From positions 1 to 44,169 of the IMG/VR virus record IMGVR_UViG_3300042945_003593: a DNA stretch of 44,169 nucleotides, one strand, 5' to 3'. Both the position numbers and the translations under genes were made by a program. This stretch comes from a virus. The notes beneath the pieces are model-generated. The model was given only the letters and a program-made list of their open reading frames with translations, was not told where the DNA came from and did not search any database. Every line of letters starts with the position of its first letter. Within the stretch, counting starts at the first letter, position 1. Positions 3,401 to 39,679 of the stretch are shown piece by piece.

Positions 3401-3947
3401 TCAATTAGGTTATAAAGATATTGTTGATGATAATATTTGGAAACAAATAGCATCAAGTCAATTAACTCAAGCACAACCATTCCAGAAAAGAGCAAATTAT
3501 CAAGATAAATTAGGTTTTTCTCCTAATGATAGATATTTAATTGGTAGTAAAACTTGCGGATCGTATCTAATGTTTGCTCCCGCTTCTACTCAACAACTAA
3601 TGGTAAATGGAACAGATTATAGATCCAATTTATTATTAGAACAAGGTGAAGATAAAGCTATTAGAATACCTGTTATTTTCCAATTCAGAATGACTGATTA
3701 TCATGGTGTAGGAAGTAGTGGAACAGGGAAAGTTGGTGGATTCAATCCTTCTTCAACTATTGAACTTACAAATATTACTTATGGTAAAAAAATAGGAATG
3801 GATATTTATGTCAAAGATGAAGGAGTTTATAGTTTTGACATACTTGTTAAGGCAAGTTATGCAAGAGAAAGTTTGACACAAGTTGTTCAATCACCAGGAT
3901 TTATTGATAGAACAAGAAGAGCAGTTCAAGATTTCTTCAAAACATAA
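471..3947 (+). CDS. Large virion structural protein, probably a baseplate wedge component (gp7-like size and place)
   Basis: An 1158-residue protein, first gene of a three-gene rightward operon that continues with a 2062-residue protein and a fibre protein. The N-terminus (residues 1-100) has a helix followed by a QIPSIGYLNSELKRLEENIK segment and a short beta motif (ATIRLEDGTYKRI). I recall this arrangement from unnamed structural proteins of T4-like phages. Residues about 415-490 are charged and heptad-like, suggesting a coiled coil. The remainder is beta-rich with many Tyr, Asn and Thr. There is no signal peptide or membrane segment. T4 gp7, the largest wedge protein, is about 1030 residues, and gp6- and gp25-like genes occur in the window, so a baseplate role is reasonable. 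This is inference from size and neighbourhood; I see no diagnostic domain. The start has no clear Shine-Dalgarno sequence but lies 40 bases from a late-promoter motif. Confidence 0.6.
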   Translation: MKSSDNSLHDVLQELMRTHANSLEILAKFSEAFTSTTDSVSVNLVDNSGQTTTYQIPSIGYLNSELKRLEENIKGLAGVDTGSATIRLEDGTYKRILASENSKEPSRIGSVTIPNSFTRRNNWFFDNFINPMLVVTFDVTNYVSSDVRSVWYRRIIVNTDTDEKRTIFDQNIKGRNDIDYETLMLFLNGRGINHFVDEDEYRFPPSISQFTGTFDVISILNSDTSSSGNSKIYRLNKLTYTNNLNQVIDTETLKIGDILSTRGGARYRVDELNKIDNTIRLTLTSGYELIPIGTDVLYIYSEVLTLRQVEVSIGHDERQVIFFRPVNNSTQVASTKWSPGAGIYSNELRIRTADSEMSLDDYYRKYCIDFGAYLLDAAKNKPVPTILGIKPDSPLLRADYFKVVIANEHKIQSQDAESLRLKFAEKNRLQSEIQQLELAISKTKEELQKSYLGNPADNRIINNKLKNLIDQKNSLSTLYSTIVREMGAMSTTEIVNESPKYRIRGFFPIPTPKIENKSGAQNIIQFIIQYRYLRLDGTANGSKSFEFTDNTGNNLKGYYSEWVEVLSPVRKQVYDTTTQKYVWANEDVNDADAVNINQVDIPITSNEKVEIRIASISEAGFPLNPLKSDYSQSVIIDFPTELVQANEKSLLQQAQQELNKVEVISELNSQGLDVVLSNVFSLGDKVYVTKGDVVASGFTTDSGTQLSVFEKFRDMESKMLSLQEMVTATKGKMDVYLLDDANNRYTISNGGLLELHAGFYSEIVQQFPENERKGAIVTAKYCIVIENLNSTPLELVTRFPGGINQSIEYLYDKVNKNPEYLNRNYHLAPLLHNNVSTDRLSRNSPYWLAPFMSSQVPSQFAYARGKALGLVEDLYKRPTDNRYLIPTEFTQTNINPDAFVWTGVYDTTGKPYGTTNVTDFCVHIDHPDVRSKAFAGSPSQIYEPNVIETTTIPNQVNPKIRHAKYFNLQMSEQDGMVQLGYKDIVDDNIWKQIASSQLTQAQPFQKRANYQDKLGFSPNDRYLIGSKTCGSYLMFAPASTQQLMVNGTDYRSNLLLEQGEDKAIRIPVIFQFRMTDYHGVGSSGTGKVGGFNPSSTIELTNITYGKKIGMDIYVKDEGVYSFDILVKASYARESLTQVVQSPGFIDRTRRAVQDFFKT

Positions 3948-3976
3948 TTTTCTTACACATTACAAATTGAGTTTAT

Positions 3977-6900
3977 ATGGCAGACTTACAAATAACTACG
4001 AAAGATACAATTTTATTTTCAAGTACGGATGTTTTCTTTGTTTCATTAAAAAAGAACATACCAGACGATAGAGAAATTTTAGTTTGGTTTGATGATACTG
4101 AACCTTCAGTACCAGAATACTGGAATATAGAAAGACATTACAAATGTGAAGACTTTACTGAAGAAGGTAATGCCTTTATAATTTATGCTCCTAATTCTAA
4201 AGATATTGTTCGTGAAGTCTCACTTGCTATTTCATTGAGACAGGGTGTTGTATTACCCAAATCAACTTCATTAAAAATATACTGCCGTATAAATAAAGCA
4301 GGTAATCCTATTTTAACAACAACTATTTATTATCAATCAACATATAATCCATATAGCGAATCAGACGATATTTATAGTATTAATCCGAATTACAATTTAC
4401 CTATTTATACTGATGGAACTAAACAATTATTAAGAACAAATCCTAAATTAACTGGAAATATAAAAATCACAATTGATAGTAATCAAGATATTTGGTTGAA
4501 TACCATTGATGCAAATATAGATTTATCTTCAAATAGATTTAAAAAATTCAAACTTTCTAAAGATGGTTCTTATGCTTATGATGTAAGAAAACTTTTAGAT
4601 AATGGTCGTTTAGATTCTAAAACTTTATTTACACTCAATAATAAAGATGAAACATCAGTAAAAACAAATATAGCAGAGCAATACAATACATTTTATTGGA
4701 GTGGATGTGAATATTTTCCAAGTTTAATGTATAATGAGGAGTTTTCATGTTTTGCTCCTCTATGGATTGATAAAACTATACCAGATTACTTTGTTATTTT
4801 TTCTTCAAGTTCTTTAGTATCTGACAATTTGAAATCTGATGTAGAAAATTTCAAAGATAGTATAATTAAAAATTCAAGGATTGTAAAAGTATTTTCTCTC
4901 AAAGAAAATACAAATATAGGAACATATTTACGATCTATATTAAATTCTAATGTTTATAGTTCATCACCTATAAAAGTTAATTTTGAAAATCTTAAATCAA
5001 TCTCATATAGAGGTATTGATTTTCAAAATGGTATTTATACTGAAAAGAACGAACTGATTGATGACTTTATAGAAGAAGATAATCCTATTCTTCATTTTGA
5101 AGAAAGAATAATTCAAGGATTTGAAAGAAATAACTTGATTTGCTATAACTTATTGAATTTAGAATTTCTATTTAATGATAATGATTCTTATGAATACGAT
5201 ATAAGAAGATATTTCGGTTTTTATGTTAATGAAAATGAATTATCCAAATTTACAATAGATGAAGAAGCATTTTATCAAAATTATACAGACATTCCAAGAA
5301 ATAAGGTTAAAGTAGATAACCAATCGGATTTTGATATATTTGATAATGATGGTATATCCATAGCAGCAAGTTTAGAAGGTGATGTAAAAGTTCCGAGTTC
5401 TGAGCTTGTAAAAGAATCCGAAAGAATTTTCTACATAAAAGGGAAGTATAATCTCTATAAGATTAACGATACTTTAATAGATGAAATTAAAGGTAATAAT
5501 TTCTTTTCAAGAAGTTTTGCTAATTTGAAAACGAGTCAAAACTATTTACAATTTTCAGATATTACAGGATTCTCAAGTCCAAAATTTGTTGCTAAATCAG
5601 AAATAAAAAATGATTATGGATTTCCTTTTGAAATTTCTATTAAAAATAAATTAAATGATTCTGATTCTATCAGTATTATCTATCAAAAAGGAAATATTCA
5701 AAAAGAGTGGCGAGTTATTGGTAATTCTTATGCAGTAGGTGTTGGTAAAACTCTTGAAGAAGAAATTATCAGAGAAAGTGCAAATGTTAATTTAGCCCTA
5801 CCTTTAAAATCATTTGATAATTATAGTGGATTTAATGTTGGTCTTTTTGAAATACCCGAATTATTAGATTTTGAGATAGGTTCTTACATTCAATTAGAAT
5901 ATAACAACAAAATTATTTCTGCATCTAATTCTATTTCAGAATCCGTTTCGCTTACTAATGGTTTAAATACATTTACAGTTTCTTCTACAAATAACTTAAT
6001 TGTGAAACAATTTGTAAGTGGTACAGGCATTCCTTCAGGTACAATTATATCATCTATTGATACCACTACAAATACTATTACTATTTCAAATAATGCAAAT
6101 CAAACAATTACTTCAAATATTACATTTTCTGCTTATATCGCAGTCAAAGGTGATTACACAACTTATGTTGAAAATGGAGAAGTAATAAATATTATAAATA
6201 TGAATGATAAAAGTTCTTTTGAAGCAACATTGAACTTTACTCCACAAATTAATTCATCTAATAATACAATAATTAATCTTCAGACTAATTCTAATTTAAA
6301 CAATGTAAATTCTAATATTTCAAATTATGCTGTAAATTTAGACTATACCATTAACCCATCATTATTGAAAGAAAGAAGGTGTGAAGTATCTCATATTGAA
6401 AAAAATAATGGGACATTTACAACTTTTCTTTATGTAAAGGATAATAGTAAAACAATCATAAATAATTCTAATTTTTCAGATAATATTATATTCACATTAC
6501 GATATACAAATGATTTTATTTACAATTATTTTAATCCCAATGGTTCACCAAGTCAATATTTAGATTCAATTATTTCTGCTTTTAATACATTTGATTATAA
6601 AAAATTTACAATAACAAAAAAAGATTCTGGACTTTTAATAAGAAGTAATTTTGAACCTGATGCTGTATACAAAGTTAAAATAGATTTATCAAATAATCAT
6701 ACTGAAATATCAGATATTTCTATACATAATATTTCATCAAATGGGTATCTCTATAAATACGAATCTAATGTTCCAAAATATAAAAAGATTGTATTATATG
6801 AATATCAATATTATTCAAAAAGAAATTCAATCTTGATTCCAAGTGATTTCAAAAATAATATACTTGGAGATGAGTGGATTAAAACACCAAATGGAAACAA

Positions 6901-9900
6901 AAAATTACAATCATATTCTCTTGATAGTAAAATCTTTTTCTATCTTAATAATGAATCTACATCTTTTATTGAAATAGAATTACAAGATAGTGCAATACCT
7001 GAAATTGACAAAGAATCTAATGTTATATTCTATAATTTACATAAAAACTCATTAGGGGTTATGAGTTTTATTCCTATCGCAGATTTTGATATGGATTATT
7101 TAGATTCTGATTATTCTTATGTTCCTTCTGAAGAATTAAAACTAAATTTTTATAGATTCAAAGAAAACGAAAAAATACCAATTAATCAGATCTATAGGAT
7201 ATTCACAGAATATAGAGTTAATAATTCTACAACAATAAATCTTTTTGCAGTTTTATCAAATGGAGAAGAAATTGAAGTTGATTCTAAAATCATAACAACA
7301 GATGCTTCTACTAATTTTATATCTATGCATACCATACCTGCATTGTATAATGATACAATAGGTAATATAGAGGTTTCTCATTTCTATTTTAATTATACTG
7401 AAACTATATCATCAATAGAAAAGCCATACTTTCAAAATTCAAAAGGTTTTAGATTAATGACAAACAATTCTTTTCAAAGGAATATGTTTGTTTCATCTGC
7501 TAATTTCAATATTACTTTTATAAATGGAGATGTAAGTGGACTTTCGGTTGGTTTATATGTAAAAGGAAATGGTATTCCATCTGGATCAAGAATAAAATTT
7601 ATATCAACAACAAGCACACCAAACTATTTTACTATTGATAAAGTAGCCACTATTCTAAATATAAATACTCTTTTAACTTTTAGTTTATATGGAGAAATTG
7701 ATACATTCACTCAAGAGTTTAATGTTAATCTTTTTGAGGGATTTAATGGTATAAATGACTTTTTAGATGAAACTGAAACAAGTCTTTTAGAACAACTAAA
7801 GAATAACAATAATCCTGAAAGATTTTCCTTTAATCTTTTAAGAAGCGAGTATGATCGTTTGAGAGAAAATTTCAATAAGAATCTATGCAATAAAAGTAGA
7901 AATATAGCTTATATCAATAAATGGGTCATACCCAATTCTTCTGATGTTCGTTCAAATGAATATAGGTTAAATACAAATTTAGCATTTGGTGTTAGAAACT
8001 TTAGTCCTGATAATATTATAGAATTACCCAGCAGTTTATTATTACATACTCATGAGTGGTATTACATCAATGGTATGCCTTTTTGGTATTCTGAAAATGC
8101 TGCTATATCTGATCGAAATTACACATTTTCAAATGTGAACGATGCTGATTTATACAATGTTAATTATGATGGGTTCTCTCGTTTATTTATACGTGGATCT
8201 CATAAAGAAAGGTATAAAAGTCAAGTTCTGAATTCAGAATTTAGAAATTTATTTACTCACATTAAGTATGATAAAGTATTAGACAAATCTTTTGTATTTT
8301 TCAAAGGAACAAGATTTGAGTTAAATGTTACAAATCCCCTATTTTATAATGATTGGAGATTTACTTCTGTATTAAAACCAATTATACGAAAACCATTTGA
8401 GTCTGATAAAAATTACAATATAAGATTAGTTGAGAATAGAAAGTGGAAAACATTAACTTTTATTGTTGAAATATTTGTACAATCTTATGAGTTTCCAAAT
8501 TCTGAAATGAATCTTATAGGTTTGTATACAACTGATTCTTCAAAAAATATTTCAATTGATAGTGATTCTAAATTTGTTTTTACACCTTTTGATTTACAAT
8601 TAACAAGTTCATTGAATCCAACATATTTATACACAAATAAAGATGAAAATAACGATTTAATAACCTTTGATACAAGTGATGATTTATCAAATCAAATTAC
8701 TATAAATTCTTCAGGAGTTTTTAGCGATATAAGGGTATTTGGATTTGGAAAAAGAACAGGTGTATATTCTGATTCTAAATATATTAATTTACAAATTTAT
8801 GGAAAATTTCTAAATTCTTTAACATCTACTTCTATCAAATATAACTATAATCAAACGGATGTTTTTCCGACTATTAATGATGCTATCGCTTATGAATTTT
8901 TAGGTCTTTCAAATTATCAAACTCTAAATGATAATCCTAATGAAAGATACACTAATCCACCAATTCATGAAGATTCTAATTTAGGTGTTTCATATTCATT
9001 CAATAAATCATCAGCATATTATTTAAAGAATGATGCTGGTTCATTGAAAGAGATTATTAAAAAAGTTTCTTTTGCATCATTGTTAAAAACTATAAATAAT
9101 CGTAATTATACTCATATAATAATTGATGAGAATGGTAATAAAACAGAAAATTACAATTACGAATTATTTGGATTGCAATATCAAAATCCATCAAAGATAT
9201 CTAAACAAGCTCTTTTACAACCAGATGTTGATAGAGATATACCAACAGAATTTACAACTAATAATGTTATTGGATACAATATTGTCAAGAGTGATTATGA
9301 TTTTGAAATAATTCGTTATGGTGGAGATTATGTTCCAAAAACAAGAAACATTTTACCATTTTATATGGGAGAATCTTTAACATTTCTTGAAGAATTTTAT
9401 GATTCAAAAAAACCTAATACAAGATTTAATTTTAATAATTCAAATTTTGCTAAAATTTTGAATTTAGGTTATCATAAGGTTTCAGATAAAAAGATTCTTA
9501 CTCTTGCAGATACAACTTATACAAGCGATTATCCTCTATTAGACGAGACAGGTATAGACTATAAAGATTTTTCTGTAATATCATCAACATGGGATTACAA
9601 TTTCTATCAATTTTATGATAGAAAAGATGCATCAACTCCTATTAATCCTTTAGTTGAAGCAGAAGAAATAAAATCATTTTTCGGTTCTAAATTAATTAAT
9701 ACACCAAATTTCTTGACACTTGAAGATTTTACATTTTCAAATAGTAAAGATATAAGTAAAGATTTTTGGTATGAATTAAATAATAATGAAATTATGATTC
9801 ATATATTTCCTGCAAATATGATATTAAAATGTTTGAATATTGATTTTCTAAAAAATAACATATTAAGTTCTATAAATCCTTTAAGAAATAATGATTTATA

Positions 9901-19507: not shown

Positions 19508-21232
19508 TTATTTTAATCCTTTCAATGATCTAACACTTGCTGAATGTAATTCAATATTTACACTCTTTGGTGTTATTTTTGCAACATCAATATTAATAGA
19601 ACTAGTCACATTCAAATCAGAATTTTCTTGATAAAAAACTCCATATCTATCTGACCATCCCCCTCTAATTATTGGATATTCACTTTTACCTATAACAATA
19701 TTACCATGTTCATCTAAACCTATATCATTTGGTTCAATAGCAGATGGATTATTAATTTGTTCTTGTAACCAATTAAATTTGTTTAATTCATTTCCTTCAT
19801 ACAAGAAATATAAATCAACAGAATCTACACCATCTATTGCTTCAATTATTGCTACTAAATCTGATTTAGGTATTCTGTCTCTTCGCTTATTATTTAAGAA
19901 ATACTGTGATACTCTTTCTACAATTTTTTCTCTGATTGTATCTACATCATATCCTTCATAAATAATTATAGACACATTAAGGACATATCTAGTAATTACA
20001 GGATCAAGAACTTTTACAGCAGTTGTAACTATCATTTGTCCAGATTCTTGTAAAAGTCTATAAATTGAGTCTTTTTCAGCATCAGAAAGAATAAATGTTT
20101 CTTGAGGAATTGTAAAATATTCTTCGTTTTTACGAACTCTTTTTAGAATATCTGGAATAGCAAAAACATAAATAACATTGTCATCTTCCAAAACATTATC
20201 ATCAAATGTTGAAAAACATTCAACTATGCTGAAATAATTCATTTTTTGTAAGAATATAGAATAATTTTCAGCATTTGCTAAAACAAAAGAACGGCTTGTT
20301 CTCGGTGCAACCAATCTTGTAAGTTCAATTGGTTCATGGTCTGAACCAAAAGTAATTGGTGTAACTAAACTTGTTGTTAAAGCCGAATTTAAATCAACAT
20401 CATTTCCTGTTACATCATAACCTGTTTCATCCCATCTAAACGAAACATTGTTTATGTTGGTTAGAATATTTCCAAAAGATCCATTAGTTATTAAATATTC
20501 TATTCTTATGGTTGAACCTGCTATCGGTATTTTTCCATTAAACCCAGTTCCAAAAAATATATCTACTCCAGATGTCATACCTGTTCTTATTAAGCAACCA
20601 GGTTTTTCATAAGGAATATCATATAAAGATTCATACTTTGGAAAATACTCACCATTTACATAAACTTTTACCATATTGTTATCTATCTCTTTCCTACCTC
20701 GTATATTTACTTCAAAAGATTGTAAAGGTGATCCAGTTCCTGTAAATGTTTGATTTTCCCAAGTTCCCTGAACTATTTTAACTTTAATTCTTTCACTATT
20801 TGTAATATTTATTCTTATCTCATCTTGATTCAAATCAAGAATGTAACTTTGGTTATTATTTAGACAAAATACTTTGGTATAATTTGGTATAATTATATTC
20901 TGTCCAACCATATCAACACTCTGTCCAGAATATTCAATAGATATATCTCCACTTGCAGCTATAGCACGAGTAGCAGAATGACCATTTGCCGCTGCAATAC
21001 CTATTACCGATTGTCTTCTTGAAGCCGTATTAATATTAAGTTCTGTTATACTATCTTCAATATAGTAGAATATCATTTGTGAAAGATTAATGAGGGTTTC
21101 TAATAATTGCCCCCAAGGAGAAGCTGGTGTAAATTGGTCTGCCGTTAAATTATAAACAGTTTGAAACCAAGTTCTTGCATCTTCATATAACCTTTGAAAA
21201 GTAATTCGATTTAACTTAAAAAATTGCTTCAT
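19508..21232 (-). CDS. Baseplate wedge protein, gp6 / baseplate J-like
   Basis: A 574-residue protein with the layout of the T4 gp6 / P2 gpJ family, which forms the inner ring of the contractile-tail baseplate. The N-terminal region (FQTVYNLTADQFTPASPWGQ, then LLETLINLSQMIFYYIEDSI) matches the usual opening helices, followed by AASGDISIEYSG strands. The middle has the typical VDIFFGTGFNGKIPIAGSTI segment, where the insertion domain contacts neighbours. The C-terminal part (VDTIREKIVERVSQYFLNNK, then IPKSDLVAIIEAIDGVDSVD) matches the conserved end of J-like proteins. T4 gp6 is 660 residues, so the length fits. It is the first gene of the operon transcribed from 21257 and is followed by fibre genes. 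The start is 25 bases after the promoter motif. Confidence 0.85.
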   Translation of the reverse strand: MKQFFKLNRITFQRLYEDARTWFQTVYNLTADQFTPASPWGQLLETLINLSQMIFYYIEDSITELNINTASRRQSVIGIAAANGHSATRAIAASGDISIEYSGQSVDMVGQNIIIPNYTKVFCLNNNQSYILDLNQDEIRINITNSERIKVKIVQGTWENQTFTGTGSPLQSFEVNIRGRKEIDNNMVKVYVNGEYFPKYESLYDIPYEKPGCLIRTGMTSGVDIFFGTGFNGKIPIAGSTIRIEYLITNGSFGNILTNINNVSFRWDETGYDVTGNDVDLNSALTTSLVTPITFGSDHEPIELTRLVAPRTSRSFVLANAENYSIFLQKMNYFSIVECFSTFDDNVLEDDNVIYVFAIPDILKRVRKNEEYFTIPQETFILSDAEKDSIYRLLQESGQMIVTTAVKVLDPVITRYVLNVSIIIYEGYDVDTIREKIVERVSQYFLNNKRRDRIPKSDLVAIIEAIDGVDSVDLYFLYEGNELNKFNWLQEQINNPSAIEPNDIGLDEHGNIVIGKSEYPIIRGGWSDRYGVFYQENSDLNVTSSINIDVAKITPKSVNIELHSASVRSLKGLK

Positions 21233-31171: not shown

Positions 31172-31861
31172 TCAAATCAAAGATTTAATAACTTTTGGAT
31201 TCATAATAAGATTGTATTTTTCTAGTATTTCTCTTAATTCTTCTTCACTTTTTTTTCCATTTGGTAATTTCCATTCATGAGAACTAATAGAACGAGAGTG
31301 TTTTACGTCCACTGAATCTATTATTCCTATCTGTTCATCACCAAGTAAAGAAGCCCATAAGAAATCTAAACCCCAACTTGAATAATTAAGCGAGAATGTC
31401 CACATTACCTGTTTAAGAGATTCAGATGTAAATAAAGGACACATGACTTCAACGAAATTAGTAATTCTAACCTTTGATGAAGGATTATGTCTTGTTATAT
31501 CCCAAGATATAAAAGAATCTGAAGAAAGAGATGGTTGGCACATACTCAAATTATAGAGTTTTGCATAATCAACTAATCTCACTAAATCTTCTTCTGTTAT
31601 CTCAATATCCCAATCAGGAAACCAAAAATATTCATATTGATTTATGATATTATTTTCTTCAAGATACTCTTTTATACTATGATATTTATATCCACCAAGA
31701 TTTTCATAAACTAAATCTACTTTATCTCTTGCAGGACTTTTATCCTTTTCTGAAGTATAATCAATTACAACTAAATCAAATATGGGATTATCAATTTCAA
31801 TATATTGTTTTAATCCTAAAAGTTCATGTGTTGTGGTCAATATAACACAAAGAGATTTCAT
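31172..31861 (-). CDS. DUF707-like glycosyltransferase
   Basis: A 229-residue protein with the signatures I associate with DUF707 (Pfam PF05212), a glycosyltransferase-A-like family: YFWFPDWDIEI with an acidic D-x-D-like site (PDWD, 82-85), CQPSLSSDSFISWDITRHN, VRITNFVEVMCPLFT, SSWGLDFLWA, then IGIIDSVDVKHSRS with a conserved His. It would transfer a sugar from a nucleotide-sugar donor. The acceptor is unknown: phage DNA bases (as in T4 glucosylation), virion proteins or host surface glycans are all possible. The gene overlaps the truncated polymerase gene by four bases (ATGA) and follows it in the same transcript, which weakly favours a DNA-related role. No signal peptide or membrane segment is seen. 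Confidence 0.7.
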   Translation of the reverse strand: MKSLCVILTTTHELLGLKQYIEIDNPIFDLVVIDYTSEKDKSPARDKVDLVYENLGGYKYHSIKEYLEENNIINQYEYFWFPDWDIEITEEDLVRLVDYAKLYNLSMCQPSLSSDSFISWDITRHNPSSKVRITNFVEVMCPLFTSESLKQVMWTFSLNYSSWGLDFLWASLLGDEQIGIIDSVDVKHSRSISSHEWKLPNGKKSEEELREILEKYNLIMNPKVIKSLI

Positions 31862-33279
31862 TTTTTTGATTCTAAATGCTTCTTTAAAATCTCAATCTCT
31901 TTTTCAACTTCATAGGATTGATATTTGGCTTGTTTTCTTTTATCGTAAAAGTAATCCAATGCATTTCTCAAGACACTATCTTTGGTATCGAAGATAGCAC
32001 CATTTGCACAAACAATCTTATCTTCTATATTTTCTATTTTTTCTTTTTTATAGTCAAAAATACTTTCAGATATTTCTTCTCCAACTTGACCAAGATATGA
32101 TTCTGGTGAAATATTGAATTGTCTCATAACAGATGGATAAAGACTAGCAAAGTCAAATGCGGCAACATATTCATATAGACCTACTTTCGGTTTATGAACA
32201 TGAGCACCTTTATACTTCTTATCTTTATTGTTCTTAGATTCTATAGGAATCATAACTAAGTTTTTCTCTAATAACCCTCTACATAAAACATTTTCTGTCA
32301 TATGTACTGGAGAAAATGCTTTTTGGTATTCAGATTTAGTTAATGTTCCAAGTTTGAAGAAAATATCAGCAACAGAAGTTTTCTTATCAAGCAAATTTAC
32401 AAGGTGCGTATCAACAGCATTGTAAAATACAAAAAGATTAAAATCATTATGGTATAATTCTTTCAAACTTCCTGCGTACTTAACCTTGGAAAGTCCCAAT
32501 CTATTTTTTGCAGTCCAATCTAATGTTAAATTTTCTTTGAGAGTTTTATCCCATTTTTCATAAATCTCTTTATAATCAACAATTACCTTATGCATCGGTG
32601 TTTCATGCATTCCTGTGAGTTTGTTGGTTAGAGAACTTTTATAGACAGGAATATCAAGTTTTTTTGCTCGTGTAAGAAGATATTTCCAGTCAAAGTCAAG
32701 GAAATACCAACCTGTTAAAAATGGTATTTTTGGTAAAAATTTGACAAAAAATGTATAAAGCATATCATATTCACTATTGAAGTGAACATATTTGAATTTT
32801 ACATCAGGTGTATAATCTTTGAAATAATCTTTAAGTCTTTGATCTATTGAATTTATATTTGTTTCTGATAGTTCTTTAAGTCCTAAAACTGTTATTAGAT
32901 TGTCTTCATCTGAAAGAGCTATTGTAACAACAGGAGTTAGAGCTAAGTGTGCTTCTGGAAACCCATCTTGTATTTCAACCTCAATATCACAAAAGAATTT
33001 TTTAGGTTGATGAAAATCAAATATTTTAGATTTATCTTCTTCACTAAAAGATTCAATCCATTCTATAATTCTAAATCTATTTAATTTCTTTGCACTTGTG
33101 TTTTTTTGAACTGGTTTTTTATCCCAACTTTTTACATAATCTTCTCTTTTCTTATCGGAATAATACTCCCATTCAAACAATTGGTCTTTAGGAATAATAA
33201 ACTCATGGAGTTCAACCATTCCTTTCTGATTAAAATTACTAATGATTAATTTATTTTTTCTTTGCTCAAAATTTATCAT
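31858..33279 (-). CDS. Family-B DNA polymerase, N-terminal part only (exonuclease plus motif A), gp43-like
   Basis: A 473-residue protein with the three proofreading exonuclease motifs: FFCDIEVE (Asp98/Glu100), HFNSEYDML (Asp172) and FYNAVDTHL (Tyr286/Asp290). Palm motif A follows, AFDFASLYPSVMRQFNISPE, with Asp376. The frame then continues through a Lys/Glu-rich finger helix (YDKRKQAKYQSYEVEKEIEI) and stops before motif B (K-x3-N-S-x-Y-G) and motif C (Y-x-D-T-D). T4 gp43 is 898 residues. The missing half is not encoded next to it or elsewhere in the window, so the polymerase is split, or broken, between motifs A and B. Split T4-like polymerases are known, for example in some Aeromonas phages. 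A terminator lies just upstream, at 33338-33360. The downstream gene is the glycosyltransferase. Confidence 0.88.
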   Translation of the reverse strand: MINFEQRKNKLIISNFNQKGMVELHEFIIPKDQLFEWEYYSDKKREDYVKSWDKKPVQKNTSAKKLNRFRIIEWIESFSEEDKSKIFDFHQPKKFFCDIEVEIQDGFPEAHLALTPVVTIALSDEDNLITVLGLKELSETNINSIDQRLKDYFKDYTPDVKFKYVHFNSEYDMLYTFFVKFLPKIPFLTGWYFLDFDWKYLLTRAKKLDIPVYKSSLTNKLTGMHETPMHKVIVDYKEIYEKWDKTLKENLTLDWTAKNRLGLSKVKYAGSLKELYHNDFNLFVFYNAVDTHLVNLLDKKTSVADIFFKLGTLTKSEYQKAFSPVHMTENVLCRGLLEKNLVMIPIESKNNKDKKYKGAHVHKPKVGLYEYVAAFDFASLYPSVMRQFNISPESYLGQVGEEISESIFDYKKEKIENIEDKIVCANGAIFDTKDSVLRNALDYFYDKRKQAKYQSYEVEKEIEILKKHLESKK

Positions 33280-33702: not shown

Positions 33703-34434
33703 CTATCTATTTATGTCCTTAAAGTTCTCAAGTCTAAATTCCAATCTTCTTAATTGATCCCTTGTCAAGTATTTTCTTAATATATTCAAAGAATCAGAAC
33801 TCATTGTATAAACTTGATCCATATTGAAATTATTACTGATATTTACATTAAAATCATTTGGATTAACAATTATTTGATTTCTTCTGAAAGCATCATGAAG
33901 CCAAATCATTTGAAGTGGTGTTAATTCTCCATCATTTGAATATACATCAAATAAATGACTAACATATTTATCATTGGTTTTTTCATATAAATCATTCAAT
34001 ACATCCAAAACTGATAACTGTTTTGCATCTTTAGTTAATTCCTTAACATCTTTATTTATCAACCTAATAATCAATCTTTCATCAAATACTCTATTACCAT
34101 AAATATCATATACTCTAATAGATTTAGTGTCTTCTGCTGAAAATCTTTTTATACATTCGCTACCTATCTTTAATATATGATTGACAAATGTATTTCTAAT
34201 TGTGAAAAGATATCTTAAACCTGTTTGTCCACAAATTTCACAAGTTTCATAATCTACTAATTCACACTCATTAATATATTTCCATTCTTCTAATGCCTTT
34301 TCAATATCATTTTGCTCTTTACTACTCGCAAATATATTTTTCTTCACCTTTGCTACCCAATGAGGTGCATATTTTAGAGATAATATATTTTCTAATCTTG
34401 TTAAAGTAGTTTCAAAAAGTTTTATGTACTTCAT
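33703..34434 (-). CDS. Four-cysteine zinc-binding-type protein with capsid-targeting-like N-terminus
   Basis: A 243-residue protein starting MKYIKLFETTLTRLENI, one of six neighbours with this kind of opening. Residues 57-97 carry Cys57, Cys65, Cys68 and Cys94 in CELVDYETCEICG and ILKIGSECIKRF, the pattern of a small zinc-ribbon-like family of unknown function found in phages (ICG, then an I-R-N strand, then G-S-x-C). The remainder is helical. I infer metal binding. If the N-terminal sequence is cleaved after LFE by a prohead protease, the mature protein would sit inside the head. The 86-residue gene follows in the same transcript. Confidence 0.55.
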   Translation of the reverse strand: MKYIKLFETTLTRLENILSLKYAPHWVAKVKKNIFASSKEQNDIEKALEEWKYINECELVDYETCEICGQTGLRYLFTIRNTFVNHILKIGSECIKRFSAEDTKSIRVYDIYGNRVFDERLIIRLINKDVKELTKDAKQLSVLDVLNDLYEKTNDKYVSHLFDVYSNDGELTPLQMIWLHDAFRRNQIIVNPNDFNVNISNNFNMDQVYTMSSDSLNILRKYLTRDQLRRLEFRLENFKDINR

Positions 34435-34462
34435 AATTGATTTTCTTGTTTAGTATAATAAC

Positions 34463-35227
34463 TTAAAGTCTATCTATAAGAGCATTTGCTTCTTTTAGTT
34501 TGGTTTTATATTCTGATATGTTTTTTTCTAAACCAAATAAATAACCATACTTTTTGATTCCATACCAAGCGTTCTTGAAGAAATTAGAAACTTTTGAAAT
34601 TATTGATTGAACATTTCCTTCTCCAGCCACAGATTCAGAAACTTCTGGTGAAACTTTAGCATATCTGAAATATGGTTCTCTTGATCTTTCAGAACCTTGT
34701 TCTTTTTTATAGAAAATACCCATTTCCATATACTCAAAAAATTCATTAATCATACCAATAGAACGAGCATATGCTTTGATTGTACTTATTTTTTTCTCTT
34801 CCAATTCTTCTAACATTTCAAATACTTTCAACTTATCCCCATCGCTAAAATGATACATTTTCTCTTTTTCTGATATTTTAAGAACTATATTATCAAATTC
34901 AATATTTCCATTTTCAATTTCAATACCATGCTTTTCTAATTCTGCTATATTTTCTTGAACAGATTTTAACATTTTATTATAACTATCATCTAAATTGTTT
35001 TTTAGAGAATACATAAGTTTCTCCATTTCCTTTTTTTGATTCCAATATTCATTCAATTCGGCTTCTAATTTTTCACCGACACTTTTTTTGACTATCTCTT
35101 TATTCCTTGATTCAATTTCCTCAAATTCTTCAGGACTAAGGAAAAGTTGAGATTGTTTTGATTTCAAGGATTCTTCTTCATTGATATTGAGAAGTTCTGA
35201 TTCAAATGGACGGATAAATTTTTTCAT
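34463..35227 (-). CDS. Helical hypothetical protein with capsid-targeting-like N-terminus
   Basis: A 254-residue protein when started at MKKFIRPFESELLNINEEES. A longer frame to 35422 would run into the divergent terminase gene and past both promoter motifs, so I reject it. Residues about 35-125 are highly charged and heptad-like (probable coiled coil). The C-terminal part ends in a helical SKVSNFFKNAWYGIKKYGYL segment and a second charged helix. The N-terminus resembles the T4 capsid-targeting sequence, with possible cleavage after PFE or NEE. A core or internal head protein is my best guess; no enzyme motif is seen. It diverges from the terminase with a 60-base promoter region between. Confidence 0.55.
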   Translation of the reverse strand: MKKFIRPFESELLNINEEESLKSKQSQLFLSPEEFEEIESRNKEIVKKSVGEKLEAELNEYWNQKKEMEKLMYSLKNNLDDSYNKMLKSVQENIAELEKHGIEIENGNIEFDNIVLKISEKEKMYHFSDGDKLKVFEMLEELEEKKISTIKAYARSIGMINEFFEYMEMGIFYKKEQGSERSREPYFRYAKVSPEVSESVAGEGNVQSIISKVSNFFKNAWYGIKKYGYLFGLEKNISEYKTKLKEANALIDRL

Positions 35228-35249
35228 AATATAAAATTTTATTTCAAGG

Positions 35250-35258
35250 GTATATATC
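35250..35258 (-). promoter_or_regulatory. Candidate late promoter core, variant GATATATAC (leftward)
   Basis: On the minus strand, 22 bases before the ATG at 35227. It adjoins a mirror-image candidate for the terminase gene, forming a compact divergent promoter. Confidence 0.45.
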
Positions 35259-35267
35259 AATATATAA
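35259..35267 (+). promoter_or_regulatory. Possible promoter core AATATATAA for the terminase (rightward)
   Basis: It shares the ATATATA core but not the flanking G residues. It lies 20 bases before the ATG at 35288, similar to the shorter spacing class. An AAAGG ribosome binding site follows at 35277-35281. Confidence 0.3.
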
Positions 35268-35287
35268 TCTAATAAAAAGGAAAATTT

Positions 35288-37069
35288 ATGGCTTGGAGTT
35301 CTAAAGCAGTTGCAGATTTGATGGAAAGTATTACTAATGGGGAGAGTATGCCTAGACAAAACCCATTTTCTGAAGGTGATACGGATTGGAGAGGTGCAAA
35401 TATAGCATTTGAATACGAGCAATTAGAACTTGAAGAAATTGTCAGATGTCAAAAGGATATCCTTTATTTTGCTAATAATTACTGCTTTTCAAAGACTGAT
35501 AATGGTATAGAAAAAATTCGTTTAAGGGATTATCAAGAAAAGGTTATAGAAGCATATGCTAAAAATGAGAGAGTTATTTTTTTGGCATCAAGGCAGATTG
35601 GAAAAACAATAACAACCTGTATTTTTTTATCTTGGTATCTTTGTTTCCATTTTGATAAAAATGTGTTGGTGATTGCAAATAAAAGAGCAACATCTGAAGA
35701 AATTTTAGATAAAACTAAAACAATTTTAAGGTATTTGCCATTTTATATGAAGCCAGGCGTTAAGGTAAATAATATAGGTAGAATGGCTTTTGATAATGGA
35801 TGCCGAATTTTTGCTGAAGCATGTACAGAAACTCCTGCGATTGGTTTTACTTTTGATGTGATATTCGCAGACGAGTTTGCTCATATTCCTGAAAAAATAG
35901 CAAGGTCATTCTATAAATCTATTTTACCTACTCTATCCTCTATAAAAGATTCAAAGATGTTGATAACTTCAACCGCTAATGGATTAAATCTATTTTACGA
36001 AATCTACGATAACGCTGTAAAGAAAAAAAGTGATTTTGTGCCTTTGAGAGTTGATTGGTGGCAAGTTCCTGGTAGAGATGAAGCATGGAAACAAAAATGG
36101 ATAGGTGATTTAGGTAGTGAAGAAGCATTTAATCAAGAATTTGGAAATCAATTCGTAGCAAGTTCATCATTTCTTTTAGATGGGCAGTCTATATCATTTG
36201 CAAAAAGATGTGAAAGTAAGTATGAATTTAGAGAAATAGAATCATTACATGATCAAGATATTAATTACAAAGATTTACTATGGGATACTTCTTTTGATTT
36301 TGATTACAAAGATAACAACGGAAGATTTAGATTAGGTAAAAGATTTTTTGTTATATCAATAGATTTAGCAGAAGGTGCTAATAGAGATTATACTATTCTT
36401 AATATATTCCAATTAGTTCCGCTTAGTATGGGTGCAATGAGAAGACATAAACTTTATCAAGGTGAGATAGATTTCTTTGGTCTTAAACAAGTTGGAATTT
36501 TCAGGTCAAATACAGTTTCTATTTCAGATTTTGTAAAAATTACAAATGCTGTAATTTATGATATACTTGGTGAAGAAAGAGTAAAGATAGTTCTTGAAAT
36601 GAATTATAATGGTAATTACTTTTTAGAACTTATGTCTCAACATGAAGAATTTTTTACAGAACTGTTTATAACGACTAAACATAAGTCTGATGATAAGGTA
36701 TTCAAACCTGGTATCAAATTAAATAATCAATTAAAAAGAATATATTGTGAAGACTTTAGACCAGCGTTTAGAGCAAGGAGAATTATTTTAACTCATGATA
36801 TAACTATATCCGAATTTACAACATTTGGCGTAAATGAAGCAGGTACATATTCTAATGAAAGAGGACACGATGATTGTGCTATGAGTTGTGTAAATCTTAT
36901 GGCATTTTTTAAATCTGGTGTTTTTCCAGATTGTGTTAGTGAAATTTGGGATGAAGGTGTCCAAGAAAGATATAAAAAAGAAATCAATAACAAACTAGAA
37001 AATATGGGGAATGATAATTCTATGAATGTGAAAAATATGGGTGATATTTATAAAATGATGAGAAATTAA
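35288..37069 (+). CDS. Terminase large subunit (gp17-like packaging ATPase-nuclease)
   Basis: A 593-residue motor that cuts concatemeric DNA and pumps it into the prohead; T4 gp17 has 610 residues. ATPase motifs are the adenine-binding LRDYQ (79-83), Walker A SRQIGKT (101-107), Walker B VIFADEFAH (191-199) and the coupling motif TSTANG (227-232). The RNase H-fold nuclease shows the expected acidic triad in ISIDLAEGANRDYT (Asp359), VLEMNYNG (Glu437) and RGHDDCAMS (Asp528/Asp529). It is the only rightward gene among leftward genes from 21 to 40 kb. Its stop codon overlaps the stop of the convergent gene in a shared TTAA. No small terminase subunit is recognisable in the window. Confidence 0.95.
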   Translation: MAWSSKAVADLMESITNGESMPRQNPFSEGDTDWRGANIAFEYEQLELEEIVRCQKDILYFANNYCFSKTDNGIEKIRLRDYQEKVIEAYAKNERVIFLASRQIGKTITTCIFLSWYLCFHFDKNVLVIANKRATSEEILDKTKTILRYLPFYMKPGVKVNNIGRMAFDNGCRIFAEACTETPAIGFTFDVIFADEFAHIPEKIARSFYKSILPTLSSIKDSKMLITSTANGLNLFYEIYDNAVKKKSDFVPLRVDWWQVPGRDEAWKQKWIGDLGSEEAFNQEFGNQFVASSSFLLDGQSISFAKRCESKYEFREIESLHDQDINYKDLLWDTSFDFDYKDNNGRFRLGKRFFVISIDLAEGANRDYTILNIFQLVPLSMGAMRRHKLYQGEIDFFGLKQVGIFRSNTVSISDFVKITNAVIYDILGEERVKIVLEMNYNGNYFLELMSQHEEFFTELFITTKHKSDDKVFKPGIKLNNQLKRIYCEDFRPAFRARRIILTHDITISEFTTFGVNEAGTYSNERGHDDCAMSCVNLMAFFKSGVFPDCVSEIWDEGVQERYKKEINNKLENMGNDNSMNVKNMGDIYKMMRN

Positions 37070-37482
37070 AGAAAATCTATACTTACTATCTTTGATTTTT
37101 CAACCTCATTTTCAAAGTATTCATCTTCTTCAAGTTTTAAGAAATTTGAAATACCTCTTTTAATCATTTCATTGATACCTATTTCATCTAACTCTACATT
37201 TTCAAAAACTAATTTGGCTTTAACACCATATTCTGATTGTATTTTATTTGACTTTAATGGAATATCAGATATGTGATCCATATCAAAAGAATAAAAAGTT
37301 ATATCCGAATAAGTAAAGGGAGGTTTTATTGATTCAATAAACTTTTCTTTAATTTTTCTTTGTAAAGTTTCACTTTTAACACCTCTCCACAATAAAAAAC
37401 GAAAAGTTACATCAATTTCTCTTTGTAATGTAATTTCTAAATCTTCTCTAAATTCTTCGTAAAGTTTGATATATCTTTTCAT
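37066..37482 (-). CDS. Hypothetical protein with capsid-targeting-like N-terminus, 138 residues
   Basis: It starts MKRYIKLYEEFREDLEITLQ, matching the MK-x-I/F-K-x-F/Y-E opening shared by its neighbours. The rest alternates strands and helices (ITFYSFDMDHISDIPLKSNK, then VKAKLVFENVELDEIGINEM) and is not recognised. It is the last of a leftward run that begins near 39681, and its stop overlaps the terminase stop in TTAA. It may be an internal head protein if the N-terminus is a real targeting sequence; cleavage could follow LYE. Confidence 0.55.
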   Translation of the reverse strand: MKRYIKLYEEFREDLEITLQREIDVTFRFLLWRGVKSETLQRKIKEKFIESIKPPFTYSDITFYSFDMDHISDIPLKSNKIQSEYGVKAKLVFENVELDEIGINEMIKRGISNFLKLEEDEYFENEVEKSKIVSIDFL

Positions 37483-37502
37483 ACTTTTCTTTTATGTTAA
37501 AA

Positions 37503-37946
37503 TTATTTCTCTTTTTTTGGAAATGTTTTACCTATAATTCGTTCAAGCATACTTTTCTTTTCTGATTCAGGATTTGAAGTTTCTATATCTTTTTTAGGGT
37601 TTTCAATAATACCTAAATACAATGAATTGATTAGAGCATTTGCAGAACTCTTTCTTTGAATACGAATTCTATCAATAGATATAATCCATAACTTATTCCA
37701 ATCATGGAATTCAATATTTGCTGATTTAAAACCAAATTTATGAAGTGAATTTACAATATTTTCTCTTTTCTTTGGTGATAAGTCATTGACATCAAATGCT
37801 ATTGAAGTTAAATCTCCTATAGAATCCCTTTCAAATCTAAGTAGTCTTGATGAAATTCCCTTTTCTTCAAGGATAGTAGAAATATAATCAAGTGAATCAC
37901 CCATTGTTTCTACTGATTCTGCAAGATAATCTTTAAATTCTTTCAT
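37503..37946 (-). CDS. Putative internal head protein with best capsid-targeting-like N-terminus
   Basis: A 147-residue protein starting MKEFKDYLAESVE. This is very close in form to the opening of T4 internal proteins (MKTYQEFIAE), which is cut by the gp21 prohead protease after the Glu of a hydrophobic-Ala-Glu site. The mature part would have a helix-strand-strand-helix layout (SLDYISTILEEKGISSRLLR, then SIAFDVNDLSPKKRENIVNS) and a basic C-terminus (FPKKEK) suited to lying against packaged DNA. Targeting and cleavage are inferred from the T4 model; no protease gene is in this window. Confidence 0.55.
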   Translation of the reverse strand: MKEFKDYLAESVETMGDSLDYISTILEEKGISSRLLRFERDSIGDLTSIAFDVNDLSPKKRENIVNSLHKFGFKSANIEFHDWNKLWIISIDRIRIQRKSSANALINSLYLGIIENPKKDIETSNPESEKKSMLERIIGKTFPKKEK

Positions 37947-37964
37947 ATACTTTGTAATTTTTAA

Positions 37965-38672
37965 TTAAAAATCTGAATCCTTTTTTCTATCTACATTGTC
38001 TTTGTAAACATCAAAGAATATTTGATTAGGTGTATTAGGACGAAAATCCTTTTTTCTTCTTGTAGTTATTACTCTGAACACATAATCTTTGTTTTGTAAA
38101 CTAATATGTTCTTCACCTCTTTGCATTTTTTTATCTTCATTGTCCATAAAAAGAGTTATATCCTTGTAAGGATGATTTCTTAATTTTCCTTCTTCTTGTA
38201 CTGGATCTCTATACATACCCTTTTTATGATAATTATCTCTAATTGTATTTATTTTACTTGCATTAAATATTTCTCCAGTAACTGCTATATTTTCTTTTTT
38301 TACAGAAATATCTTCTTTTTGACGAGTTTTAGGATTATAATCAAAAACTACTATTATTTCATGTGGTATTTTTTTTGTTCTATCTCTGAGTGTGCAAATT
38401 ACTTGTTTATTACCAGAGGTATCCATATTATCTGAATATTTATTAAAAGAATTTATTATTGATGGGGCAGCTTTTTGAATTAATTCTTCAATTTCAATTT
38501 TATCAATTTTAAAATTATCAGCTTGTTCATTTCCATGATCTGAAAAAACAACTTTTAGTTCTTCTGTAATTATGTCGTATTCAATCTCACCTTCAAATAA
38601 AGACCAATCTATTGAATAAGTATAATTTATATTTGTTTTATCAAAATTCTCAAGCGTTTTAATATTTTTCAT
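37965..38672 (-). CDS. Hypothetical protein with capsid-targeting-like N-terminus, 235 residues
   Basis: It starts MKNIKTLENFDKTNINYTYS. The fold looks mixed: strands in the first half (EGEIEYDIITEELKVVFSD, VICTLRDRTKKIPHEIIVVF) and a basic, charged second half (RRKKDFRPNTPNQIFFDVYK). No family is recognised. It lies 18 bases upstream of the 147-residue gene in the same transcript. The TLE triplet at residues 6-8 is a possible prohead-protease site. If packaged, it would be one of several internal proteins; otherwise it is an ordinary phage protein of unknown role. Confidence 0.5.
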   Translation of the reverse strand: MKNIKTLENFDKTNINYTYSIDWSLFEGEIEYDIITEELKVVFSDHGNEQADNFKIDKIEIEELIQKAAPSIINSFNKYSDNMDTSGNKQVICTLRDRTKKIPHEIIVVFDYNPKTRQKEDISVKKENIAVTGEIFNASKINTIRDNYHKKGMYRDPVQEEGKLRNHPYKDITLFMDNEDKKMQRGEEHISLQNKDYVFRVITTRRKKDFRPNTPNQIFFDVYKDNVDRKKDSDF

Positions 38673-38681
38673 AAGAAAGAA

Positions 38682-39230
38682 TTATTTTATATTGAATTCC
38701 TTTTGGATTTCTTTTTCAATCATTTCTATATCTTCTTTGAGTATAGTATAAAGTTTATTCATAGTTTTAATTTTCTTTGTTATCCACTTTTTGAAATTAA
38801 CTATTTCTTTCTTTATAATTTTAATGATATCTCCAATTTTTGATTCATTGACTGAATCAAGTTCAACTCCTGTTTCTGCTAAAGATTCAGATAAATTTCG
38901 TACCTCAATAATTAATTCTTCAGCTTCTGAAAGATAACTTTCAAATTGTTTTTGAATTTTTGAAGAAGAAGCAGATATTCCGTTACGGAGTTTATCAAAT
39001 TTTTGATACATTAAATGAATTTCATGTAATTCATTATGTGAATTTTCAATTAAATAGGAAAAGGGATTATTACTATTAATGATTGAAATCAAATCTTTGT
39101 ATGCTGTATCAAATCTTTTATTAACTTCTGCATATTGTTTGTATTTATCTTGAAGAGATTTAGTTTCTAATGATTCTTCAAAAAGTTTCTTCATTTTGAA
39201 GTATTCTTCGGTAATAGGTTTAATTCTCAT
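38682..39230 (-). CDS. Coiled-coil hypothetical protein, possibly capsid-targeted
   Basis: A 182-residue, almost fully helical protein (FDTAYKDLISIINSNNPFSY, LIIEVRNLSESLAETGVELD, KIIKKEIVNFKKWITKKIKT). Two starts are possible. The first methionine gives MRIKPITEEYFKMKKLFEES. The second, at 39194, gives MKKLFEESLETKSLQDKY, which fits the capsid-targeting-like openings of the neighbouring genes better. No Shine-Dalgarno sequence decides between them. The first start lies one base before the stop of the upstream gene, which favours coupling and the longer form. The helical, charged composition resembles scaffolding-core proteins. Confidence 0.5.
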   Translation of the reverse strand: MRIKPITEEYFKMKKLFEESLETKSLQDKYKQYAEVNKRFDTAYKDLISIINSNNPFSYLIENSHNELHEIHLMYQKFDKLRNGISASSSKIQKQFESYLSEAEELIIEVRNLSESLAETGVELDSVNESKIGDIIKIIKKEIVNFKKWITKKIKTMNKLYTILKEDIEMIEKEIQKEFNIK

Positions 39231-39231
39231 A

Positions 39232-39633
39232 TCATTTTTTTTTGTTTATGGACTTTTGGTATTTATCAAAACTTTCGAGCAAATTTTCAATATTTTGCTT
39301 ACCAAGTCCTTCTTCAGCGTGTATTTTATACTTTGGTAGACTGATTTCATAGTCTAAACAATATTCAATAAGCCAAACGGCACAATCATAACCTGTCTTG
39401 TCTTTATACGAACTATAATTGATTTTCGTCTTATTTTGTCTTATTATATGTTCGTCACTTAAATTATGATCAAACGATATACGAACTGGAATACCATTAT
39501 CCTGAATAGTTTGAACAAATGAATTGTAGTCTTTAACTATAACCCAATTATATACAGCATATTCTGGACTTTTTATATGATTCCATATATCGCTAGGATT
39601 TCTTTTATCATCTAAAAATAAATTATAGCTCAT
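39232..39633 (-). CDS. Cyclic-phosphate processing receiver-like (cREC) domain protein
   Basis: A 133-residue protein if started at MSYNLFLDDKRNP. A 16-residue upstream extension to 39681 begins inside the promoter-like motif and is less likely. The motifs LFLDDKRNP, VRISFDHNLSD and TGYDCAVWLIEYC match the small receiver-derived domain family described as cyclic-phosphate processing (cREC, Pfam PF20274). It is proposed to act on 2',3'-cyclic phosphates or related nucleotides in RNA-repair and signalling contexts, and is often found in phages. The DD pair and the SFDHNL Asp would bind metal. The biochemical role is poorly known. It is the first gene of the leftward run toward the terminase. 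Confidence 0.7.
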   Translation of the reverse strand: MSYNLFLDDKRNPSDIWNHIKSPEYAVYNWVIVKDYNSFVQTIQDNGIPVRISFDHNLSDEHIIRQNKTKINYSSYKDKTGYDCAVWLIEYCLDYEISLPKYKIHAEEGLGKQNIENLLESFDKYQKSINKKK

Positions 39634-39679
39634 AGAGCATGATATAAATGTTAGTAGTTTATCAATAATAAACCATTTC

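Follow-up and report, generated by a model that had tools for sequence, protein, structure and literature searches.

Why do neighbouring phage genes that encode unrelated proteins begin with nearly the same residues? This question is raised by IMG/VR virus record IMGVR_UViG_3300042945_003593, whose entire 44,169 bases were analysed here (hereafter the window) and which represents a fragment of a large T4-like myophage. A sequence-only reading had proposed that six minus-strand genes around the large terminase gene (genes A to F, positions 33,703 to 39,230) share a short N-terminal motif like the capsid-targeting sequence (CTS) of T4 internal head proteins. All six openings are present in the window, and the proteins behind them are indeed mutually unrelated (all-against-all BLASTP, no E-value below 0.2). 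By computation we find the tag, its modularity, a tagged gene at the position of a head-core gene and, in close relatives of the window, a prohead protease with its catalytic residues. Judging from sequence comparison, it is quite probable that the shared opening is a T4-type CTS used on a large scale.

Conservation of the opening in the window genes

Conservation was measured as pairwise identity among orthologues, separately for residues 2-8 and for residues 31 to the end (the body). Gene A (33703..34434, minus strand, 243 residues) begins with the IKLFE-form tag MKYIKLFE (residues 1-8, 34411..34434, minus strand), which scored 19.7 bits with a position-specific scoring matrix (PSSM), the highest value among all open reading frames (ORFs) of the window, and is followed by a cargo with a CxxC..C cluster. 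IKLFE was invariant across all orthologues examined, down to 35% identity, and residues 2-8 were 94% identical against 50% for the body. In an AlphaFold2 model, residues 1-10 of this protein had the lowest confidence (mean predicted local distance difference test score 28) though they are among the most conserved, as expected for a detachable address. Gene C (37066..37482, minus strand, 138 residues, 15.4 bits) carries the IKLYEEF-form tag MKRYIKLYEEF (residues 1-11, 37450..37482, minus strand), recognised by orthologue comparison and PSSM, on a cargo without known match; IKLYEE[FY] was found in all orthologues examined, with 79% identity in residues 2-8 and 52% in the body.

For gene B, orthologue comparison placed the true start at 35227 (MKKFIRPFESEL) and not at 35422 as in the mechanical listing (34463-35422). 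The resulting protein of 254 residues (34463..35227, minus strand) has a variant tag, MKKFIRPF...INE, before a helical cargo. Orthologues of gene B, whose bodies are 22-57% identical, keep I[KRQ]xF and, at residues 15-17, [VIL]xE within this tag (residues 1-17, MKKFIRPFESELLNINE, 35177..35227, minus strand, defined by orthologue comparison); identity was 59% in residues 2-8 and 35% in the body, and the tag is of the same class as MKHLKPYTSFINEG in contig L337. The gp17-type large terminase (35288..37069, plus strand; phrog_5989, E 9.8e-52), which sits untagged among the tagged genes on the opposite strand, showed the contrary pattern to genes A, B and C, with 62% identity in residues 2-8 and 85% in the body.

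Gene D (37503..37946, minus strand, 147 residues, cargo without known match) starts with a T4-form tag, MKEFKDYLAE followed by S, whose residues 1-10 (37917..37946, minus strand) have the same spacing as MKTYQEFIAE of the T4 internal proteins IPII and IPIII. Nearly all orthologues start with MKxF[KRQ][ED]YLxES, in which M1, K2, F4, Y7, L8, E10 and S11 are invariant; unlike in genes A, B and C, the body is as conserved as the opening. Gene E (37965..38672, minus strand, 235 residues) has a possible but degenerate tag, MKNIKTLENF, and its window copy scored 6.5 bits. Orthologues of gene E start with MKNILNYDFFSFLNES (L002), MKNIRSYESLITEN (L004) and MKNILPYTSSINEH (L003); most have MKNI and, soon after it, a hydrophobic-x-Glu motif, which the window copy lacks. 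Gene F (38682..39230, minus strand, 182 residues, coiled-coil-like) was rejected as a tag carrier: the tag had been placed at an internal Met, which is replaced by Leu in L006, and the N-terminus itself is missing from three distinct orthologues (L001, L002 and L004). Chance is the likely source of the resemblance here. The claim of six tagged genes is thus narrowed by the orthologues: the tag holds well for genes A, C and D, probably for B in a variant form and possibly for E, where it is weak, but not for F.

Distribution of the tag in environmental viruses

We searched a degenerate DNA pattern for MK[HY]xKLFE across 2.9 million viral contigs. It matched at least 120 stretches; the residues in reversed order gave 9 matches, and MKKLEKxE, a generic start, gave 86. 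Among the matches listed, 112 tagged families had unrelated bodies. These families were picked on residues 1-8 only, and residues 9-13, outside the selection, gave an independent consensus of [NQED]-F(65%)-[IV]-N(35%)-E(47%), with Y in 12% at position 10. The tag of these environmental viruses can be summarised as about 13 residues with the consensus MK[HY]IKLFEQF[IV]NE, present on more than 100 mutually unrelated protein families. When 257 Gb of bacterial and archaeal genomes were searched with a longer, stringent DNA pattern, the single match lay on a 254-kb phage-like contig with a prohead protease in a Bacteroidetes metagenome-assembled genome (MAG). We found no report of an IKLFE-type tag in the open-access literature.

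Further tagged proteins, whose search the sequence-only reading had suggested, were looked for in relatives and proved numerous. Of the 219 ORFs of G001 (200 kb), 11 have [IVL][KRQ][LRPT][FYL]E within residues 2-18 where 0.5 would be expected (p 2.6e-12), and 9 have a T4-like form where 1.1 would be expected (p 2.5e-6); the resemblance among openings exceeds chance. Five relatives, each with a prohead protease of the T4 gp21 type, contain 12-24 tagged ORFs per genome (observed/expected: G009 14/0.5, G020 24/0.6, G028 14/0.4, G001 13/0.2 and G006 12/1.0). Three further contigs, G014, G016 and G032, contain 39-63 (16-20% of all ORFs, 0.5-1.5 expected), the last two of which appear to be one virus. 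Tagged genes were adjacent above chance in five of seven genomes. A cluster confined to the terminase region, as the window alone had suggested, is not supported: in G001 the tags are found throughout the genome, and tag-like starts are grouped next to the portal gene.

Some features of individual contigs were also observed. The tags of G014, G016 and G032 are mostly without a cleavage motif (for example MKYIKTFE in G016), and many of their tagged ORFs are short and arranged in tandem; a VGDYV motif occurs in several. Tandem arrays of largely paralogous genes, all starting with a tag (MKHIKLFEDY..., MKYLKLFENF...), occur in L065 (8 genes, 1446-5241) and L081 (6 genes, 645-2970 and 6977-8732). 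In L337, a phage contig binned with a Bacteroidetes MAG, the ORF at 3078-3500 (plus strand) resembles by eye a homologue of SmpB, a protein of trans-translation.

Comparison with the T4 capsid-targeting sequence

In the T4 tag, residues 4 and 7 drive targeting and residues 8 and 10 processing; Asp at position 10 stops processing but not targeting, and the gp21 motif is L/I-X-E (PMC9026906). These positions correspond to the aromatics Y4 and F7 and the processing residues I8 and E10 of MKTYQEFIAE. The environmental consensus has the same layout (aromatic, second aromatic three residues on, hydrophobic-x-Glu) shifted by three residues. Aromatics three residues apart are found as F7/F10 in environmental tags, as the invariant F4/Y7 in gene D and as Y8/F11 in gene C; gene A has F7 and no aromatic at residue 10. 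The T4-form pattern F/Y-x-x-F-[LIV]-x-E, which matches gene D and T4 IPII and IPIII, coexists with the commoner tag in the same genomes (observed against expected: 6 vs 0.97 in G001, 7 vs 0.5 in G014 and 5 vs 1.1 in G016), examples being MINFKQFITEA, MKTYLQYIKEA, MNFQDFLNEG and MKEFKEYLNES.

A putative cleavage motif, [LIVMF]xE at about residues 10-21, was present in 71-86% of tagged and 20-26% of untagged ORFs of G009, G020 and G028, an enrichment that partly follows from E13 in the tag model. In the window, genes B and D have hydrophobic-x-Glu, genes A and C have it only as L-F-E or L-Y-E inside the tag, and gene E lacks it. When a doubled artificial consensus was compared with phage records by BLAST, it matched only T4-type phages (E = 9), at Ip10-class internal head proteins where annotated, which is anecdotal; a second doubled consensus query gave no match. 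The T4 late-promoter motif TATAAATA was also tried and set aside: it occurred above shuffled sequences, yet mostly within genes.

Taken together, the environmental tag and the T4 CTS (IPI-III and Alt, processed by gp21) are both N-terminal, 10-19 residues long, with aromatics three apart, followed in many environmental copies, as in T4, by hydrophobic-x-Glu; both stand before unrelated mature proteins, and several of the tag-bearing phages share with T4 a gp21-type protease and tag-like ends on core and shell proteins. On the other hand, the extra IKLFE block is the commonest form here, contigs carry from 12 to about 60 tagged ORFs where T4 has a few, the protease is fused to scaffold, the cleavage motif is mostly missing in some lineages and an IKLFE profile does not retrieve the T4 internal proteins.

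Head protease and head genes in relatives

Seven environmental contigs (L001-L007) have terminases 80.9-91.9% identical to that of the window; among these contigs, L005 is G001 (199,927 bases) and L006 is G002, a 92%-identical relative of the window. With 33-34% terminase identity, Sphingomonas phage PAU and Tenacibaculum phages PTm1 and PTm5 are the closest isolates that have been annotated. A search of the window for Peptidase_S77, the T4 gp21 family, found none, as expected for a 44-kb fragment. The check for a prohead protease was for this reason run on relatives, and there it was positive: G001, G002, G003 and G006 have Pfam matches to Peptidase_S77 over the cut-off. Complete copies are frames of 620-820 residues, and those tested also match phrog_207 (head-maturation protease, E 4.3e-33). 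Their catalytic His and Ser, in the motifs G-x-[LM]-x-HP and SSR, align with those of T4 gp21, and the PTm1 equivalent is annotated as prohead core scaffolding protein and protease. G023, the contig of L109, has a main protease-scaffold gene and, about 40 kb away, a second, short S77 match.

In T4, the core gene 67 is located between the portal and protease genes. The order in G020 and G009 is portal, tagged gene, protease-scaffold fusion, major capsid protein (MCP) and tagged gene; G028 has the same order, with one more tagged gene before the MCP and one more gene after it. The gene at the gp67 position starts with MRYVKLFEQFIKE in G020, where it has a strongly acidic tail, with MKIIKTFEDFITE in G009 and with MKHIKLFE in G028 (at an internal Met of the called ORF). 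It is probable that this tagged gene is a head-core gene in all three genomes. The tagged genes shortly after the MCP start with MKLSKKLMLFEEF, MKLKSKLKLYEQFVNE and MKFKKVLLFEEL, and the capsid proteins themselves begin with MxxL[IL]NEA or a similar sequence. Behind the portal gene of G001 comes a series of genes, several of which have tag-like starts (MRIFKEYKEQKVNEA, MNRKKIYSFGEFVLNE, MIKRFNEYENKLNEE).

Proposed mechanism and alternative explanations

From these comparisons we infer targeting, cleavage, packaging, injection and a function of the cargo. The N-terminal peptide, with two aromatics three residues apart, would dock the protein on the scaffold core of the prohead, and in many copies the hydrophobic-x-Glu after the aromatics would be cut by the gp21-type protease fused to scaffold. 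Tagged proteins would thereby become part of the prohead, be trimmed, remain alongside the DNA in the head and probably be injected when the next cell is infected.

Several observations weigh against a T4-type CTS. PTm1, the nearest annotated isolate examined in full, has a protease-scaffold gene, yet at most three tag-like starts. In G014 and G016/G032, [LIVMF]xE showed no clear excess over untagged ORFs, and most tags are without the motif; no protease was seen on these contigs, which look like genome fragments, and a joint loss of cleavage site and protease is not claimed. Among tag contigs of at least 80 kb, S77 was found in 12 of 26 and phrog_207 in 13 of 26, the rest of which may be fragments; among those of 40-80 kb, S77 was found in 2 of 13, against 1 of 24 control contigs, which are mostly smaller, and the association of tag and protease at the level of contigs is not size-controlled. 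We found no virion proteomics for these phages. Finally, the IKLFE-form PSSM applied to T4 proteins puts the internal proteins at ranks 19-54 of 233. Because of this failure, the T4 identity of the signal, as first proposed, rests on the mixed forms, the gene order and the protease, and genes A, B and C are classed as CTS-like and not as proven T4 CTS.

An alternative is that the opening docks proteins on a target other than the prohead core (for instance a compartment made by the phage, a membrane, part of the tail or neck, a chaperone or an adaptor) and that these proteins act in the cell unpackaged. The lineages with 39-63 tagged ORFs, mostly without cleavage motif and on contigs without a detected head protease, would fit such a role, as would PTm1 with its protease and almost no tags. 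However, the tag on the gp67-position gene in three genomes, the enrichment of hydrophobic-x-Glu downstream in tagged ORFs of protease-bearing genomes and the T4-form starts that accompany the tag, also in G014 and G016, argue for the prohead, and we regard another docking target as unlikely. A second possibility is that a DNA or expression cassette, such as a translation-initiation context or a recombination hot spot, is shared and the peptide itself is functionless. Tagged genes do cluster and many are tandem paralogues (L081, L065), but among the 112 families listed 34% of same-residue codon pairs differ synonymously and 73 distinct 24-mers were counted; it is thus the peptide that is kept. 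The spaced residues F10 and E13 are also conserved and the reversed-order control was far below the true pattern, making a cassette very improbable. Chance likeness of Lys/Ile/Phe/Glu-rich N-termini in AT-rich genes, suggested by the shortness of single copies and by the superficially similar start (MKQFFKLN) of the gp6-like window gene at 19508-21232, is hardly credible given the excess in G001 and the conservation at 35% body identity, and is disfavoured for genes A, C and D.

Among other known systems, the ejection proteins of phiKZ and SPN3US (S80/gp21-like protease) are comparable to what is predicted here, in that many internal proteins are packaged and ejected and cleavage follows short motifs ending in Glu. 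Identical N-termini have also been noted there on divergent proteins, gp53 and gp54 (PMC5694885). These systems differ in that several propeptides exceed 100 residues, and no shared short tag is described in the parts of that report consulted. PTm1 resembles the window in its terminase and the protease-bearing relatives in its prohead core scaffolding protein and protease gene, and differs in having almost no IKLFE or T4-form tags.

Other features of the window

The window also encodes gp6- and gp25-type baseplate proteins, a clamp loader and ribonucleotide reductase. A DNA polymerase-like ORF (31858-33279, minus strand) has 473 residues only and apparently stops soon after its DFASLYPS motif; the next ORF (31172-31861) is unrelated, possibly reflecting a split polymerase, as annotated in PTm1. 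Adjoining the tagged genes, 39232-39636 (minus strand) encodes a cREC_REC (cyclic-phosphate processing receiver) protein (Pfam E 3.9e-17), whose N-terminus, MSYNLFLD, is highly conserved and without tag.

Cargo and implications

None of the 109 ORFs that have a T4 homologue was tagged, compared with 77 of 1102 others (p 8e-4). Tagged proteins include ankyrin-repeat and DUF5824 proteins in G001, where genes with T4-form or tag-like starts encode an ATP-grasp ligase, a peptidoglycan-binding protein and an endolysin-type protein, and a zeta-toxin-like kinase and a cytidylyltransferase in G020. Among 99 tagged families scanned for domains, most had no match; the others included GNAT, SET, 2H RNA ligase, leucine-rich repeats and ankyrins. 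The tagged ORF L111:1501-2802 (plus strand) has an ArdC N-terminal anti-restriction domain (44 bits against a cut-off of 22.6), and L154:982-1518 (minus strand) gave a marginal match to Acb1 (28.3 bits against 27), directed against the cyclic oligonucleotide-based anti-phage signalling system (CBASS), or to 2H proteins. The suggestion that the cluster delivers anti-defence proteins thus gains from predicted anti-defence proteins tagged in other viruses. None was recognised in the window, whose cargo proteins gave no informative match to Pfam, PHROG, PADLOC or PDB folds and so lend no support to a specific anti-host function; structure models of genes A and D, of moderate quality, had no PDB match.

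There is perhaps an even chance that in widespread large T4-like phages, at least partly of Bacteroidota, one interchangeable address loads tens of unrelated proteins into the capsid for injection, and that targeting without removal may be normal where the processing site is mostly missing. The proposed cargo would comprise predicted anti-restriction and anti-CBASS-like proteins, kinases, acetyltransferases, ankyrin and leucine-rich-repeat proteins. If capsid targeting is correct, a string of 13 residues would predict the capsid cargo, and likely the effectors injected, in a large group of uncultured phages for whose internal proteins there is no other annotation; the repertoire, 12 to about 60 per contig, is far above that of T4. 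It would also point to candidates for anti-defence and host takeover, among them ArdC-like, Acb1-like and zeta-toxin-like proteins and many families without Pfam match, and offer a transferable address by which proteins could be loaded into giant capsids.

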